A stretch of 22,102 nucleotides of DNA from a virus: positions 1 through 22,102 of IMG/VR virus record IMGVR_UViG_3300042865_000749; one strand, written 5' to 3'. A program made the translations under genes and the position numbers. Shown piece by piece: positions 16,141 to 22,102 of the stretch. Under the pieces are notes generated by a model. The model did no database searches, was not told the origin of the DNA, and worked only from the letters and a program-made list of their open reading frames with translations. Numbering within the stretch: the first letter of the stretch is position 1; each line of letters opens with the position of its first letter.

Positions 16141-16149
16141 ATATTGATT

Positions 16150-16908
16150 ATGGACATTGAAACTGAAAAATTTATAATAGAGGAATATAAAAAAGGGTTG
16201 GGTTCTGTAATGATTTCACGTAAAGTGGGGTTATCTAAACCTACGATATTAGCTGTAATAAAAAAACACAAACTAACGAGGTATAAAGATAGATGTAAAT
16301 GTTTAAAAATAAAAGAAGTTGGTGACAAATTTACATTATCATGGACGTGTAAGATGTGTAAAAACGAATTCCAAAAAACCTCGAAAAATAAATCCGTATT
16401 GTGTCGTAATTATTACAACTCAATAAAAAAAAGTAGTAATTGTAAATCTTGTAGTTTATTATTACAGAGAGGTAAAGGAAATCCTTTTTATGGGAAAAAA
16501 CATAGTAAACAAACACTCGATTTAATTTCCAAAAAAATATCTGAAAATCCACCAAAACAAAGTTGTGTGTCTAAATTGGAAAAAAAATTGTTGAGTGAAA
16601 TTAAAAATAGGGGAATAGATGCTAAAGGAACTGTGTCTATTGATAGATTTATATGTGATATTTTTATTGAAAAATACAATTTAATTATTGAATTTTATGG
16701 TGATTATTGGCATTGTAATCCCAAAAAATATAAATCTGATTATTTTCACCCGCACAAAAAAAAGACAGCAAAAGAAATATGGGACGAGGATAAACTAAGA
16801 ATTGATTATTTGAAAAAAATGGGTTATAATTTAGAAGTTATCTGGGAACGTGAATTCTCAGATGATAAAAAATTAAACAAAATTATTAAAAAATATGTCA
16901 AAAATTAG
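16150..16908 (+). CDS. Free-standing Vsr-like (EDxHD-type) homing endonuclease
   Basis: 252 aa from ATG at 16150; an in-frame TTG at 16144 is a less likely start. Residues ~5-45 form a resolvase-like helix-turn-helix (ISRKVGLSKPTILAVIKKHK). Residues 49-101 carry CxC, CxxC, C and CxxC, a probable zinc-binding unit. 'GKGNPFYGKKHSKQTLDLIS' (~108-127) is a NUMOD3-type DNA-binding motif. The C-terminal nuclease is Vsr-like: E144 (SKLEKKLL), D170 (FICDIF), E181 and H188 in 'IIEFYGDYWHCNP', D212/D214 in 'IWDEDKLR', then 'GYNLEVIWEREF'. The family makes site-specific double-strand breaks that promote its own spread. No intein halves flank it, so it appears to be an intergenic insertion between a terminator and the glycosyltransferase gene, which it overlaps by 14 bases. 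Confidence 0.87.
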   Translation: MDIETEKFIIEEYKKGLGSVMISRKVGLSKPTILAVIKKHKLTRYKDRCKCLKIKEVGDKFTLSWTCKMCKNEFQKTSKNKSVLCRNYYNSIKKSSNCKSCSLLLQRGKGNPFYGKKHSKQTLDLISKKISENPPKQSCVSKLEKKLLSEIKNRGIDAKGTVSIDRFICDIFIEKYNLIIEFYGDYWHCNPKKYKSDYFHPHKKKTAKEIWDEDKLRIDYLKKMGYNLEVIWEREFSDDKKLNKIIKKYVKN

Positions 16909-18115: not shown

Positions 18116-18829
18116 ATGTTAATCAAACAACCAATTACTAAGATTTTATTTATGGACATTGAAACAGTTGGGGGTTGTCCCAACTATGATGTGTGTTCTA
18201 ATTTAAACCCATCTGTGGCTGACCAATTTGACAAATATTTTGATTGGTTCTTGAAAAGGTTTCCTGAAGATAACGAAATTAAAGAAGACCAAAAAAATAT
18301 TGTATTTTCAAGTAGAGCTGGTTTAGTTCCTGAATTTGCAAAAATTATTTGTGTTAGTTTTGCATTTGTTTTAGATGATGGGTCTGTTAGAAAACAAACA
18401 TTTTCAAATGATAATGAACATCAATTGTTGAAAGATGTTCAAGGTTTATTAAACAAATGTGCAAAGTTAGATTTTTGGTTGTGTGGACATAATTTGAAAA
18501 ACTTTGATATCCCAATGTTGGCAAAACGTATGATTATTAATGGATTGATGCCTCCGGCACTTCTTCCATCATATGATACAAAACCTTGGGAAATCAAAGC
18601 AATTGATACCAAAGAAATTTGGCAATATGGGGCATATTCTTCAATTGGGTCACTCGATTTATTATGTTCTACTATGGATATACCAACTCCAAAGGATGGT
18701 GAGGTAAAAGGTGATAAAGTTCACTCAGAATATTGGGAAAAACAAAACATCAAGGGTATTAGTGAATATTGTGAAAAAGATGTTGATGTCTTAATTCAAA
18801 TAATTAAAAAGTTAAAAGAACTCAGATAA
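18116..18829 (+). CDS. DEDDy 3'-5' exonuclease (PolB-exonuclease-like)
   Basis: 237 aa, a complete RNase H-like DEDDy exonuclease. Exo I is 'FMDIETVGG' (D14, E16), exo II is 'CGHNLKNFDIPML' (N126, D131), and exo III is 'YCEKDVDV' (Y218, D222), supplying the four metal-binding carboxylates and the Tyr. The length and the 'SSRAGLVPEFAKIICVSFAF' segment match the stand-alone predicted 3'-5' exonucleases related to the proofreading domain of family B polymerases. It removes nucleotides from DNA 3' ends, so roles in proofreading or in processing recombination ends are plausible. Its TAA overlaps the dUTPase ATG (TAATG), linking it to nucleotide metabolism genes. Confidence 0.88.
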   Translation: MLIKQPITKILFMDIETVGGCPNYDVCSNLNPSVADQFDKYFDWFLKRFPEDNEIKEDQKNIVFSSRAGLVPEFAKIICVSFAFVLDDGSVRKQTFSNDNEHQLLKDVQGLLNKCAKLDFWLCGHNLKNFDIPMLAKRMIINGLMPPALLPSYDTKPWEIKAIDTKEIWQYGAYSSIGSLDLLCSTMDIPTPKDGEVKGDKVHSEYWEKQNIKGISEYCEKDVDVLIQIIKKLKELR

Positions 18830-19506
18830 TGCAAGGAAATATGAAAGATTTGTTTAAACAAGTCGATGATTTACAAAATTATTTAAAAGGAAAGGAAGAT
18901 GAAATAGATTACAATATTATCTATGAAACTTATGGAGTTGACATTAAACAACTAGAACAAGAAATGTTGAATTATGTCCCCAAACAAATACTTGGTTACA
19001 CTAAACTTAATCCCGATGCTATTGACCCTAGTTACAATTATATAAGTGACTCAGGCTTTGACTTGTACTCAACAGAAGAAATTGTTGTAAACCCATTAGG
19101 TAGAGCTTTAATACCAACAGGATTGGCCTTTGACATCAAAGATGGTTATGAAATACAAGTAAGGTCAAAAAGTGGTTTAGCAATAAATCAGGGTTTATTT
19201 GTATTAAATTCACCAGGAACTGTGGATTGTTTTTCTGAAGATATGAAAATTTTAACTATAAATGGTGAAAAACATATTAAGGATTTAAAAATAAATGATA
19301 TAGTATTTTCATTCAATGAAAAAAGTTTAGAAATTGAAAAAGATATTGTTCTTAAAATTTTTGACACTAATGTACAAGATATATTGAAAATTGAGACTGA
19401 AGAAGGTGTACTTGAGGTAACCCCCAATTCAGAAATTTATACAAATAAAGGGATTGTTTTGGCCAAAGATTTACAAGAAAATGATGAGATAATTGTATTT
19501 TTTTAA
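18829..19506 (+). CDS. dut: dUTPase N-terminal half fused to split-intein N fragment
   Basis: 225 aa. Residues 1-133 are the N-extein. A ~50-residue extension comes first (MQGNMKDLFKQVDDLQNYLK), then trimeric dUTPase motif 1 'SDSGFDL' (73-79), motif 2 'RSKSGLA' (112-118) and the first half of motif 3 'NSPGTVD', ending with catalytic Asp133. At C134 the frame passes into an intein. Block A begins 'CFSEDMKILTINGEKHIKDL' and block B is 'TPNSEIYTNKG', then the frame stops after 'DEIIVFF'. dUTPase hydrolyses dUTP to dUMP and PPi, keeping uracil out of DNA. The fragment alone lacks motifs 4-5 and half of motif 3, so activity requires trans-splicing with the product at 20414. ATG at 18841, with AAGGA just before it, is an alternative start. 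Confidence 0.92.
   Translation: MQGNMKDLFKQVDDLQNYLKGKEDEIDYNIIYETYGVDIKQLEQEMLNYVPKQILGYTKLNPDAIDPSYNYISDSGFDLYSTEEIVVNPLGRALIPTGLAFDIKDGYEIQVRSKSGLAINQGLFVLNSPGTVDCFSEDMKILTINGEKHIKDLKINDIVFSFNEKSLEIEKDIVLKIFDTNVQDILKIETEEGVLEVTPNSEIYTNKGIVLAKDLQENDEIIVFF
19228..19503 (+). other. Split intein, N-terminal fragment (Int-N, 92 aa)
   Basis: Starts with the nucleophile Cys (TGT at 19228-19230), directly after the catalytic Asp codon of dUTPase motif 3. Block A is CFSEDMKILTINGEKHIKDL, with the usual 'IKDLKINDIVFSF' continuation. Block B is at about 'VLEVTPNSEIYTNKGIVLAK', with Ser where family members usually have His (TPNH). The fragment ends at a natural stop after block B, the standard split point of the Hedgehog/intein fold. 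92 residues is close to known Int-N lengths of about 90-100. Confidence 0.92.
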
Positions 19507-19512
19507 CCAAGA

Positions 19513-19540
19513 TACTATTTATCAATAAAGATAATAAGTA
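19513..19540 (+). promoter_or_regulatory. Imperfect hairpin at the endonuclease start
   Basis: TACTATTTATC (19513-19523) and GATAATAAGTA (19530-19540) are complementary at 9 of 11 positions around a six-base loop. The right arm ends on the A of the ATG at 19540-19542. In T4-type homing endonuclease genes, hairpins over the ribosome-binding site restrict translation; a similar role here is only suggested. It occupies nearly all of the 33-base gap. Confidence 0.35.
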
Positions 19541-20433
19541 TGTCAGTAAAATGTAAAATTTGTGGGATTGAAAAACAATATTCAATTGTTGAACATTTAA
19601 AATTTGAACATAAATTAACCTCAAAAGAATACAAAGAGTTATATCCAGGTAATTTAGTTAAATCAAAAGAATATGCAACAATATTTTCAGAGAAACAAAA
19701 AACTAAATGGAGTGATACTGAATATAAACAAAAAATGACAAAATCTAGACAAGTATCCCATAATAAATCTGAATTCAAAAATAAAATGTCTAATATTATA
19801 AAAAAGAGACATAAAGAAACACCCGAAATCTATTCAGGTTTTACCAATTGGCATAAAAGTGAAAAATTTAAAGAGTGGGTCAAATCTGAAGATAGAATAA
19901 AAAAAATATCAAAAACATCAAAAGAAAGATGGGAAAATGAGGAGTATAGACAAAAAACAATCAAATCAATCGTAAAAGTGTTGGGTGATGGTAGATGTGA
20001 AAAAGGAAAAGAGTTTAGGGAAAATATGTCAAAAATTATTTCTGAATTATATAGTACAGGTAAATTAAGTAATACAAGTAACAAATATAAAACAGGAAAA
20101 TATGAATCAAAGGAAAATGAAACCTTTTTATATTCATCCTCATATGAATTGGAAACTATGATTTTTTTTGACTCAGTTAATTTTATAAAAAGATGGACGA
20201 ACAAACATGGTATTCGAATAAGATATTTTTATAATGGACTACACAGAAACTATGTTCCTGATTTTTACATTGAATTAGCCAATGGTAAAATCTTTTTAAT
20301 TGAACTAAAGGGGTGGGAAACTGAGGAAGTATTAGTAAAACAACAATTTGCATTAAAAGAATACCCAAACTATAAATTGTTTTACTCAGTTGAAGAACTA
20401 AAAAATTTTATATATGAAAACAACGAAGATTAA
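19540..20433 (+). CDS. Zinc-finger PD-(D/E)XK homing endonuclease within split intein
   Basis: 297 aa. Residues 5-24 form a C2H2/MucR-like zinc finger (C5-x2-C8-x10-H19-x4-H24) followed by 'LTSKEYKELYPG'. The middle (~45-190) has repeated Lys/Arg/Ser-rich helices such as 'KTKWSDTEYKQKMTKSRQVS' and 'SKERWENEEYRQKTIKSIVK', DNA-binding repeats of the kind found in phage homing enzymes. The C-terminal nuclease begins 'YSSSYELETMIF' and has D241 in 'YVPDFYIEL' and E255/K257 in 'FLIELKG', the PD...ExK active site. It stands alone, with its own start and stop, exactly where an embedded endonuclease domain would sit between Int-N (ending 19506) and Int-C (starting 20414). It presumably cuts intein-free dUTPase alleles to spread the whole cassette (inferred). 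Confidence 0.88.
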   Translation: MSVKCKICGIEKQYSIVEHLKFEHKLTSKEYKELYPGNLVKSKEYATIFSEKQKTKWSDTEYKQKMTKSRQVSHNKSEFKNKMSNIIKKRHKETPEIYSGFTNWHKSEKFKEWVKSEDRIKKISKTSKERWENEEYRQKTIKSIVKVLGDGRCEKGKEFRENMSKIISELYSTGKLSNTSNKYKTGKYESKENETFLYSSSYELETMIFFDSVNFIKRWTNKHGIRIRYFYNGLHRNYVPDFYIELANGKIFLIELKGWETEEVLVKQQFALKEYPNYKLFYSVEELKNFIYENNED

Positions 20434-20521
20434 AAAAATAACATCAGAAAAAAAACAAACTTATGATATAACAGTAAGTAATAATCATAACTTCTTTTGT
20501 AATAGTCATTTGATACATAAT
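20414..20521 (+). other. Split intein, C-terminal fragment (Int-C, 36 aa)
   Basis: Starts at its own ATG, inside the last 20 bases of the endonuclease gene. It begins MKTTKIKKITSEKKQTYDIT. Block F is 'TYDITVSNNHNFF', with the conserved Asp and His. Block G ends 'SHLIHN', with the penultimate His and terminal Asn intact. The next codon, TGC at 20522-20524, is the +1 Cys. 36 residues is the classic Int-C length. With Int-N it makes a 128-residue mini-intein. Confidence 0.93.
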
Positions 20522-20716
20522 TGCGGTTATTTGGGTGAAGTAAAAGTTATAATATTTAATACGAATTCAGACCAAGTAACAATAAAAAAAGGAATGAAAA
20601 TTGCACAAGCAGTTTTATGTCCAGTAATAAACGGAAAATATGTTGATTTGGAACTAAAGAAAGATTTAGGTCAAAAAGACAGAGGTGATAACGGATTTGG
20701 CTCAACAGGAATATGA
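20414..20716 (+). CDS. dut: Split-intein C fragment fused to dUTPase C-terminal half
   Basis: 100 aa. Residues 1-36 are Int-C; residues 37-100 are the C-extein. The C-extein begins with Cys37 and completes dUTPase motif 3 (CGYLGEVKVIIFN), then gives motif 4 'KKGMKIAQAVLCPV' and motif 5 'RGDNGFGSTGI' at the very C-terminus, with the Arg and Phe that close over the uracil-nucleotide substrate. Joined to the 133-residue N-extein, the product would be 197 aa with all five motifs in order and 'SPGTVDCGYLGEV' across the junction, a normal dUTPase sequence. Its start overlaps the endonuclease gene, so translation is probably coupled. Its TGA overlaps the next ATG (ATGA). Confidence 0.93.
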   Translation: MKTTKIKKITSEKKQTYDITVSNNHNFFCNSHLIHNCGYLGEVKVIIFNTNSDQVTIKKGMKIAQAVLCPVINGKYVDLELKKDLGQKDRGDNGFGSTGI

Positions 20717-22102
20717 TTACTATAATATACTCAACACATAAGAACGAAGAATATAATTCTAAATTTAAGACCCACCTAATTAATAGTGTGGGTCTTAGTG
20801 ATGTTCAAATATTGGAATATCAAAATAATAATCAATATTCTTTAGCTCAAGTTTACAATAGTGGAATAACTGAATCAATTTATGATATTGTGGTATGTTG
20901 TCACAATGATATTAAATTAGAAAAAAATTGGGGTCAAAAATTATTAAATGATTTTAATAATAACCCTGAATTTGGAATAATTGGTAAAGCAGGTTCTTGT
21001 TATTTCCCTGAATCAGGAATTTATTGGGAAAGGATGAAACAAACTATGGTTGGTCAAGTTTGGCATCAACCTGAAGGACAAAAAAAATGGTTGAGTTTGT
21101 ATTCACCAAAAGTACCCTTTATTATTCCAGTTGTAACAATTGATGGTTTATTTATATCTTTTAATAAAAACAAACTTAAACATAAGTTCGATGAAACTAT
21201 TGGAAAGTTTCACTTTTATGACCATAGTTTTACAATTCCAAATTATTTAGATGATGTAAAAATTGGAGTAACATCTTCATTTGAAATAACACATGAATCT
21301 ATTGGTCAACCAAATCAAGAATTTTGGGAATCTAAAGAAGTTTTTCTCACAAAATATAAAAATAAATTACCATTAGATTTAAAACCTGAAAAGGTATATG
21401 TCCCTGAAATTATTGGGAAAAATTTAGATAAAAAAGATAAAGTAGCCATAATAATCCCAACAAAGGGAAAATTAGATTTATTATTCCAATGTTTAGAATC
21501 ATTTTATTTAAATTGTGATTCTAATTTTTTTGACATTTTTATAGCTGATACAGGTTCTTCTTCGGAAGAATTATCAAGTATTGAAAATACGATTATGTCA
21601 TACAAAAATATAAAATTAATTAAATATTCATTTTATAATTTTGCAAAGATAAATAATGATGTTGTGAAAAATTATGTAGGTAAACAATATGAATACATTT
21701 TGTTTTGTAATAATGACATCAAAATTTTGAACAACGTAATATACAGTATGATTAAAGTTTTCAAAGATAACCCAAAAGTTGGTACTGTAGGTTGTAGGCT
21801 TCACTTTGAAGACAATACAATTCAACATGATGGTGTTATAATGTTTATAAGAGATAATAATCAATTAGGTGTAACACATAAAAATCTAAGTACATATTAT
21901 TCCTATAGTTTAGGGTTAAATAAAAATTTTGGTAATACAGGTGGATTGATGATGATAAGAAGATTCACATTTGAAAAGTGTGGTTTCTTTTGTGAAGAAT
22001 ATGATAGTTGTTTTGAAGACGTTCAACTTAATGGAACTACTTTACTTTTAGGTTTAGATAACTATTGTGATGGTAATTCAGTTGCCTACCACTATGAAAG
22101 TC
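20713..22102 (+). CDS. Two-domain GT2 glycosyltransferase, C-terminus beyond window
   Basis: Starts at ATG 20713, overlapping the dUTPase TGA (ATGA), and stays open to the right edge (463 codons). Two GT-A domains lie in tandem. Domain 1 (~1-220) starts 'MITIIYSTHKNEEYNSKFKT' and has 'DIVVCCHNDIKLEKNW' (HND at 64-66), 'VVTIDGLFISF' and 'FHFYDHSFT'. Domain 2 (~244-463+) starts 'VAIIIPTKGKLDLLFQCLES', with 'YILFCNNDIKIL' (D335 of the metal-binding motif), 'GNTGGLMMIRR' and 'EEYDSCFEDVQL' (ED at 435-436). Both have the residues of active or recently active enzymes; domain 1 looks more diverged. It transfers sugars from nucleotide donors to an unknown acceptor. Together with the GT4 gene it may decorate virion proteins or DNA (inferred). 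Confidence 0.85.
   Translation, partial: MITIIYSTHKNEEYNSKFKTHLINSVGLSDVQILEYQNNNQYSLAQVYNSGITESIYDIVVCCHNDIKLEKNWGQKLLNDFNNNPEFGIIGKAGSCYFPESGIYWERMKQTMVGQVWHQPEGQKKWLSLYSPKVPFIIPVVTIDGLFISFNKNKLKHKFDETIGKFHFYDHSFTIPNYLDDVKIGVTSSFEITHESIGQPNQEFWESKEVFLTKYKNKLPLDLKPEKVYVPEIIGKNLDKKDKVAIIIPTKGKLDLLFQCLESFYLNCDSNFFDIFIADTGSSSEELSSIENTIMSYKNIKLIKYSFYNFAKINNDVVKNYVGKQYEYILFCNNDIKILNNVIYSMIKVFKDNPKVGTVGCRLHFEDNTIQHDGVIMFIRDNNQLGVTHKNLSTYYSYSLGLNKNFGNTGGLMMIRRFTFEKCGFFCEEYDSCFEDVQLNGTTLLLGLDNYCDGNSVAYHYES

Follow-up and report, generated by a model that had tools for sequence, protein, structure and literature searches.

A dUTPase gene divided by a class-1-like split intein and an interposed nuclease gene: a predicted 'fractured' dut in a large phage

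The window analysed here is a stretch of 22,102 nt of viral DNA (IMG/VR record IMGVR_UViG_3300042865_000749, positions 1 to 22,102), in which the gene for a trimeric dUTPase (dut) is found in two pieces, each fused to one half of a split intein, with a nuclease gene between them (Table 1). The open reading frame (ORF) 18829-19506 encodes the N-terminal half of the dUTPase followed by the N-terminal intein half (IntN), and 20414-20716 encodes the C-terminal intein half (IntC) followed by the C-terminal half of the dUTPase; the intein is split between blocks B and F. An earlier reading of the letters (hereafter the sequence-only reading) had described this layout, and its coordinates proved exact to the base. 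It had also joined the two exteins into a protein of 197 aa with the junction SPGTVD|CGYLGEV, which is confirmed, the joined protein being collinear in alignment with 39 intact dut proteins, all distinct. The nuclease, which it had taken for an independent gene, is indeed a separate ORF of 297 aa in the same direction, but the separation is incomplete, since the C-half begins within the nuclease ORF and shares its final 20 nt (14-20 nt in close relatives).

Table 1. Features of the split dut locus (coordinates of the window)
Feature	Position	Strand	Description
dUTPase N-extein	18829..19227	+	133 aa; motifs 1, 2 and motif 3 to the catalytic Asp, SPGTVD
IntN half of split intein	19228..19506	+	92 aa; Cys1, begins CFSEDM, then stop
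Block B motif TPNSEIYT	19420..19443	+	position 10 (B:10) is Ser, not the near-universal His
RNA hairpin, IntN stop to nuclease start	19506..19547	+	encloses start codon; predicted translational mask
Nuclease gene	19540..20433	+	297 aa; CCHH zinc-finger-like N-terminus, helical repeats, C-terminal TnsA-like PD-(D/E)XK (PDF...E-x-K); predicted homing endonuclease
IntC half of split intein	20414..20521	+	36 aa; block F NNHNFFCN, block G LIHN
dUTPase C-extein	20522..20716	+	64 aa from Cys+1 (CGYLGEV); rest of motif 3, motifs 4 and 5, stop

Both halves match dUTPase profiles, namely PHROG_135 (dUTPase; 9e-27 for the N-half and 3e-16 for the C-half), TIGR00576 (dut; 2e-19 and 8e-15) and Pfam PF00692 (dUTPase), of which they cover the complementary positions 4-63 and 71-129 (3e-12 for the C-extein). 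The motifs of trimeric dUTPases are present across the joined protein (PF00692, TIGR00576). The concatenated intein resembles the solved NrdJ-1 split intein (9e-9), the Spl DnaX mini-intein and gp41-1. IntN matches TIGR01445 (intein_Nterm) below cut-off and also PHROG_16259 (C-terminal stretch), and IntC matches TIGR01443 (intein_Cterm) above cut-off and positions 121-155 of Pfam Intein_splicing below cut-off. The dUTPase matches of the two halves and the matches of the concatenated intein are far beyond chance. Block B lies in register where the sequence-only reading had placed it (VTPNSEIYT), but its hallmark histidine is replaced by serine; on every other in silico feature the label of 'fractured gene', meaning a split intein with an interposed nuclease, is supported. 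That reading had overlooked the His-less block B, a predicted start-masking hairpin, the TnsA-like type of the nuclease and the patchy distribution with its homing signature, as well as relatives that are split yet nuclease-less and a free-standing nuclease beside an intact dut.

Contigs were scanned with three queries, the spliced dUTPase, the nuclease and the intein. The contigs listed yielded about 70 homologues in which dut is uninterrupted, and another 53 contigs that hold a split dut, complete or in part; both the dut inteins at the same D|C site and the uninterrupted relatives for which the sequence-only reading had proposed a search exist. The split copies represent at least 21 distinct lineages, whose inteins are down to ~34% identical to that of the window; all 21 share the split site, after the motif-3 Asp at D|C(S), and are always split. 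Contiguous (cis) dut inteins were considered for loci L129-L135 and rejected, since in each of them IntN ends in a stop and IntC has its own start. Cys1 is present in 21 of 21 lineages, and the penultimate His and terminal Asn (HN) occur together with Cys+1 in 18 of the 19 tabulated, the exception (L133) having GN with Ser+1. The +1 position in close intact homologues is Asn or Ser. No relative of the intein was found in a bacterial genome collection of 84,980 species, and no dut split intein in cultivated phages, whose closest inteins are of UvsW, RNR, TerL and DnaB type.

The sequence-only reading had named an assembly artefact, or a decaying remnant in a phage with a second dut, as ways in which its view might fail. 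The partial match to the dimeric dUTPase fold (PF08761, dUTPase_2) in both contigs of the L140 type would suit a remnant, as would the damaged C-exteins of L091, with an in-frame deletion, and L122, frameshifted at a homopolymer. This explanation is nevertheless largely refuted and deserves next to no weight. The same locus is carried by nine further IMG/VR contigs with 0-2 differences over 1,888 bp, and the same layout by 21 diverged lineages with low ratios of nonsynonymous to synonymous substitution (dN/dS). No other trimeric dut was found in 11 contigs of 144-354 kb, which are not known to be complete, comprising two of the nine contigs with the same locus (147.9 and 194.5 kb, of the same phage), in which both halves are present, and nine of related types; the dUTPase_2 fold was not found in nine of the 11.

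When the joined exteins are placed in a tree, split copies lie interspersed among the 39 intact dut proteins, and the well-supported branches force at least five changes between the split and intact states. For the close set, a single clade of all split copies is rejected (approximately unbiased test, p = 0.001); for the window and L089 alone it is not (p = 0.13). A near-isogenic pair is formed by split L115 and intact L072 (L072-L074), which differ at 58 of 600 nt with dN/dS of 0.04; L115 carries exactly 1,294 bp inserted behind nt 402, and its +1 codon reads TGT where the intact gene has AAT. Synonymous divergence (dS) of the intein and nuclease is well below that of the exteins in most pairs, for example, in the pair L097/L098, 0.39 for IntN and 0.36 for the nuclease against 1.47 and 1.23 for the two exteins, and this low divergence suggests that the element has passed from one dut allele to another. 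Co-conversion beside the insertion site was looked for, and no clear gradient of extein identity was seen. Support for homing comes from the distribution, the dS pattern and the exact empty-site pair. In eleven pairs, dN/dS is mostly 0.03-0.3 for the N-extein, IntN, nuclease, IntC and C-extein, and pairs of split and intact dut give 0.04-0.18. By these ratios, purifying selection is acting on all five parts.

The 16 aligned members of the nuclease family share invariant C5, C8, H19 and H24, which are zinc-finger-like, and invariant E203, P240-D241 and E255-x-K257, the catalytic signature of PD-(D/E)XK enzymes. An AlphaFold (AF2) model of the nuclease (mean predicted local distance difference test 77, predicted template modelling score (pTM) 0.44) is matched best by Foldseek to TnsA (1t0f, 1f1z; probability 1.00, E 0.006-0.01) and after that to other PD-(D/E)XK nucleases. 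Pfam TnsA_N matches weakly in 10 of the 16 members (E 6.5e-4 or weaker), and the sequence gave no meaningful match to solved structures. Since the model and the weak Pfam matches agree on TnsA/PD-(D/E)XK, the interposed gene is predicted to be a TnsA-like PD-(D/E)XK nuclease, not a Vsr-like one. L155 carries at the same dut site a different ORF, Vsr/MTES_1575-like by its sequence and resembling a second nuclease of the window; the nuclease has therefore been exchanged at least once. Beside an intact dut, L189, a distant phage, has a cassette of hairpin and nuclease directly downstream of the gene, the nuclease being 59% identical to that of L127. Within one lineage, the nuclease is frameshifted identically in L131 and L146, from two samples, and in L130 and L134 it is reduced to its last ~29 codons between IntN and IntC. 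The split intein and the dUTPase of the nuclease-less lineages are still under purifying selection. As the split was kept where the nuclease decayed, the split outlives the nuclease.

We also note that the second nuclease gene of the window, at 16144-16908 (+), is of NUMOD3 plus Vsr/MTES_1575-like type (CDIF...YWHCNP) and stands free ~2 kb upstream of the split dut; homologues lie at the same place in many relatives, with dut split or intact. A distant relative of the interposed nuclease (25% identity) is situated inside the major capsid protein gene of Bacillus phage SP-15 (L150, 1935-4452), a gene that is annotated as joined from two pieces.

The RNA hairpin between the IntN stop and the nuclease start in the window has a minimum free energy of -8.1 and a z-score of -3.0. 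Thirteen of the 16 other loci folded give z-scores of -2.3 to -4.5; the remaining three, L127 (not significant), L131 and L140, do not show the hairpin. Equivalent hairpins over AGGAG-like sites are built from different sequence in L133, L136 and L137, and one is present in the L189 cassette. The hairpin is predicted to be able to mask the start codon of the nuclease. Such hairpins mask the ribosome sites of T4-type homing nucleases (I-TevI, SegB and MobE), which likewise have an RNA hairpin over the start of a nuclease inserted in a phage gene (PMC2988022). The dut element is unlike these in having another nuclease family and no T4-type late promoter; such a promoter was considered for the hairpin and rejected, TATAAATA being neither in the hairpin nor enriched in the window. 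No RNA family of Rfam reached threshold within the window. Because the C-half overlaps the nuclease gene, its translation may be coupled to that of the nuclease.

Of the class 1 intein features, Cys1, the penultimate His, the terminal Asn and the +1 nucleophile are present, but the T-x-x-H of block B is not, the window having TPNS. Class 3 is ruled out by the presence of Cys1, an Asp at F:4 (YDITV) and the lack of a WCT-type Cys. Block B position 10 is Ser or Thr in 20 lineages and Lys in L155, with His in none of the 21; NrdJ-1 (TPDH), the UvsW intein of Salmonella phage S16 (TGNH) and the other-host inteins of L156 and L160 have His there. A review of 2014 lists only two inteins without the block B His, one pseudogene and Tko CDC21-1, which uses Lys (PMC4031507). 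Position -1 is the catalytic Asp of the dUTPase in all dut split inteins. Loss of the block B His can be made good by the -1 extein residue in the Ssp DnaB intein, where this residue also alters the relative extent of acyl shift, cleavage and splicing (PMC6333167). For dut we propose that Asp(-1) is involved in the first splicing step or holds it back. Other candidates for activating this step are D39 and C121, invariant in twelve aligned inteins (C121 is Gly in L155). A bolder version, in which the dut inteins are a clade without the block B His that relies on the invariant Asp(-1) to activate or restrain step one, sharing this residue with the dUTPase active site and being tied to the site, is tentative and on present evidence rather doubtful.

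The lack of the block B His in all 21 lineages would also suit an intein that is catalytically dead, the dUTPase pieces associating non-covalently with IntN and IntC as no more than a dimerisation tag. Phages have enzymes encoded in pieces without splicing, such as the split NrdA of Aeh1 and the split DNA polymerase of Aeromonas phage 25 (PMC2988022). However, every lineage examined retains C1, the terminal Asn and C/S+1, residues that serve splicing only, and a single one lacks the penultimate His. Position +1 is Cys in nearly all split copies, in contrast to the Asn or Ser of intact homologues; IntN and IntC are under purifying selection, nuclease-less lineages included; and the dUTPase is interrupted within motif 3, directly at the catalytic Asp. 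A dead intein is therefore improbable. Still less probable is an intein that mainly cleaves, N- or C-terminally, with slow or partial splicing and a low or conditional level of dUTPase. The invariant Asp(-1) together with the missing His would accord with it, as would the effect of the -1 residue in Ssp DnaB, but the spliced dUTPase is under strong constraint, as the ratios between split and intact dut indicate, and the large contigs revealed no other trimeric dut.

We favour, with a probability of about 0.85, a 'fractured' dut in a large phage, in which a class-1-like split intein would trans-splice in an unusual manner and spread by homing. The two polypeptides would be made separately, IntN and IntC would find each other, and the intein would excise itself and ligate Asp(-1) to Cys(+1) to give the 197-aa dUTPase. 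With no lineage possessing the block B His, some other means of activating the initial N-S acyl shift is required. During mixed infection, a dut free of the intein would be the target of the nuclease, with the break falling near the conserved motif 3; repair of this break would copy IntN, nuclease and IntC into the cut gene. Lineages could later lose the nuclease and remain split, because dUTPase would still be made by splicing. The dUTPase activity likely depends strictly on trans-splicing, a dependence stated with reserve because the halves might reassemble non-covalently.

Several points weigh against the fractured-gene interpretation. A residue that is near-universal in block B is absent from every lineage, and Asp at -1 favours N-terminal cleavage in engineered inteins. 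The pTM of the nuclease model is low and no Foldseek match has E < 0.001. RNAalifold gives little covariation for the hairpin, owing to the largely invariant sequence of the close set. The lower dS of the intein can stem partly from codon bias. Finally, the C-exteins of L091 and L122 suggest that individual copies may carry either real damage or sequencing errors, and that some may be non-functional.

Fractured genes with split inteins were reportedly described by Dassa et al. in 2009, with gp41, NrdA, NrdJ and IMPDH as hosts. They share with dut a phage gene of nucleotide or DNA metabolism, the usual split point between blocks B and F and a co-directional endonuclease between the halves, but dut differs in having a dUTPase host cut directly after its catalytic Asp and in lacking the block B His throughout. 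Their nuclease is reportedly Vsr-like, whereas that of dut, where present, is TnsA-like PD-(D/E)XK, with only L155 Vsr/MTES_1575-like. Among the papers searched, none joins 'split intein' and dUTPase, although the reportedly eight enzyme types of the 2009 work might include dUTPase; as a host of fractured genes, we could not find dUTPase reported.

The nearest intein of a named, cultivated phage is that of S16 UvsW, with 35% identity over IntN. The S16 locus likewise has an N-part with IntN, a nuclease-like ORF (gp114.1) and IntC with the C-part in overlapping genes, but it differs from dut in host gene, in the presence of the block B His and in a different-looking nuclease. In its record (L151, 2814-5540), the annotation of the split UvsW goes no further than helicase pieces and a hypothetical protein. 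AceL NrdHF, from a phage-like metagenomic contig, is another fractured gene; a homing endonuclease lies between its halves, and its intein is active despite aberrant catalytic residues (PMC7891396). That intein is of class 3, without Cys1, and the nuclease of GIY-YIG type, whereas the dut intein keeps Cys1 and lacks the block B His. Tko CDC21-1 is, like dut, naturally without the block B His and splices through a compensating Lys58 (PMC4031507, PMC6333167), but it is an archaeal CDC21 intein with Leu at -1, and the dut family is split, of phage origin and has Asp(-1).

Other phages have further loci of this kind. Klebsiella phage KP13-7, a jumbo phage (L149, 1-5007), has nrdA in pieces with several ORFs between them and a match to an intein C-part, and looks like a fractured NrdA. 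Related IntC pieces in L157, L161 and L162 (4001-4111) and in L158 (1189-1302) begin C-halves that are DNA-ligase-like or terminase-like by eye, and these four are probable further fractured genes. The L137 contig (353,772 bp) is an intein-rich genome with nine intein-like matches, several in stop-broken frames (e.g. 192194-196322 and 297618-298979).

Around the locus in the window, seven of the nine near-identical contigs lose their match at 20729, an abrupt exchange boundary directly after the split dut; it lies 13 nt beyond the dut stop, within the next (glycosyltransferase) gene (region 20713-22102). The nearest cultivated relatives of the neighbouring exonuclease belong to Flavobacterium and Cellulophaga phages (31-34% identity), and the host of the phage is for this reason probably a member of the Bacteroidota.

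Compared with the known fractured genes, the dut locus would add a host that is unreported as far as we found, a different type of nuclease and the failure of one class 1 feature. A small, easily assayed enzyme is placed under predicted protein trans-splicing, cut one bond from its catalytic Asp, and the intein would belong to a natural family that lacks the block B His, considered the most critical residue in the first step. The one gene shows most stages of the supposed life cycle: the empty dut, a nuclease cassette beside dut, the nuclease inside the split intein, and then the later stages of a frameshifted nuclease and a deleted one with the split retained. With all of these at dut, the origin and persistence of split inteins become directly testable.

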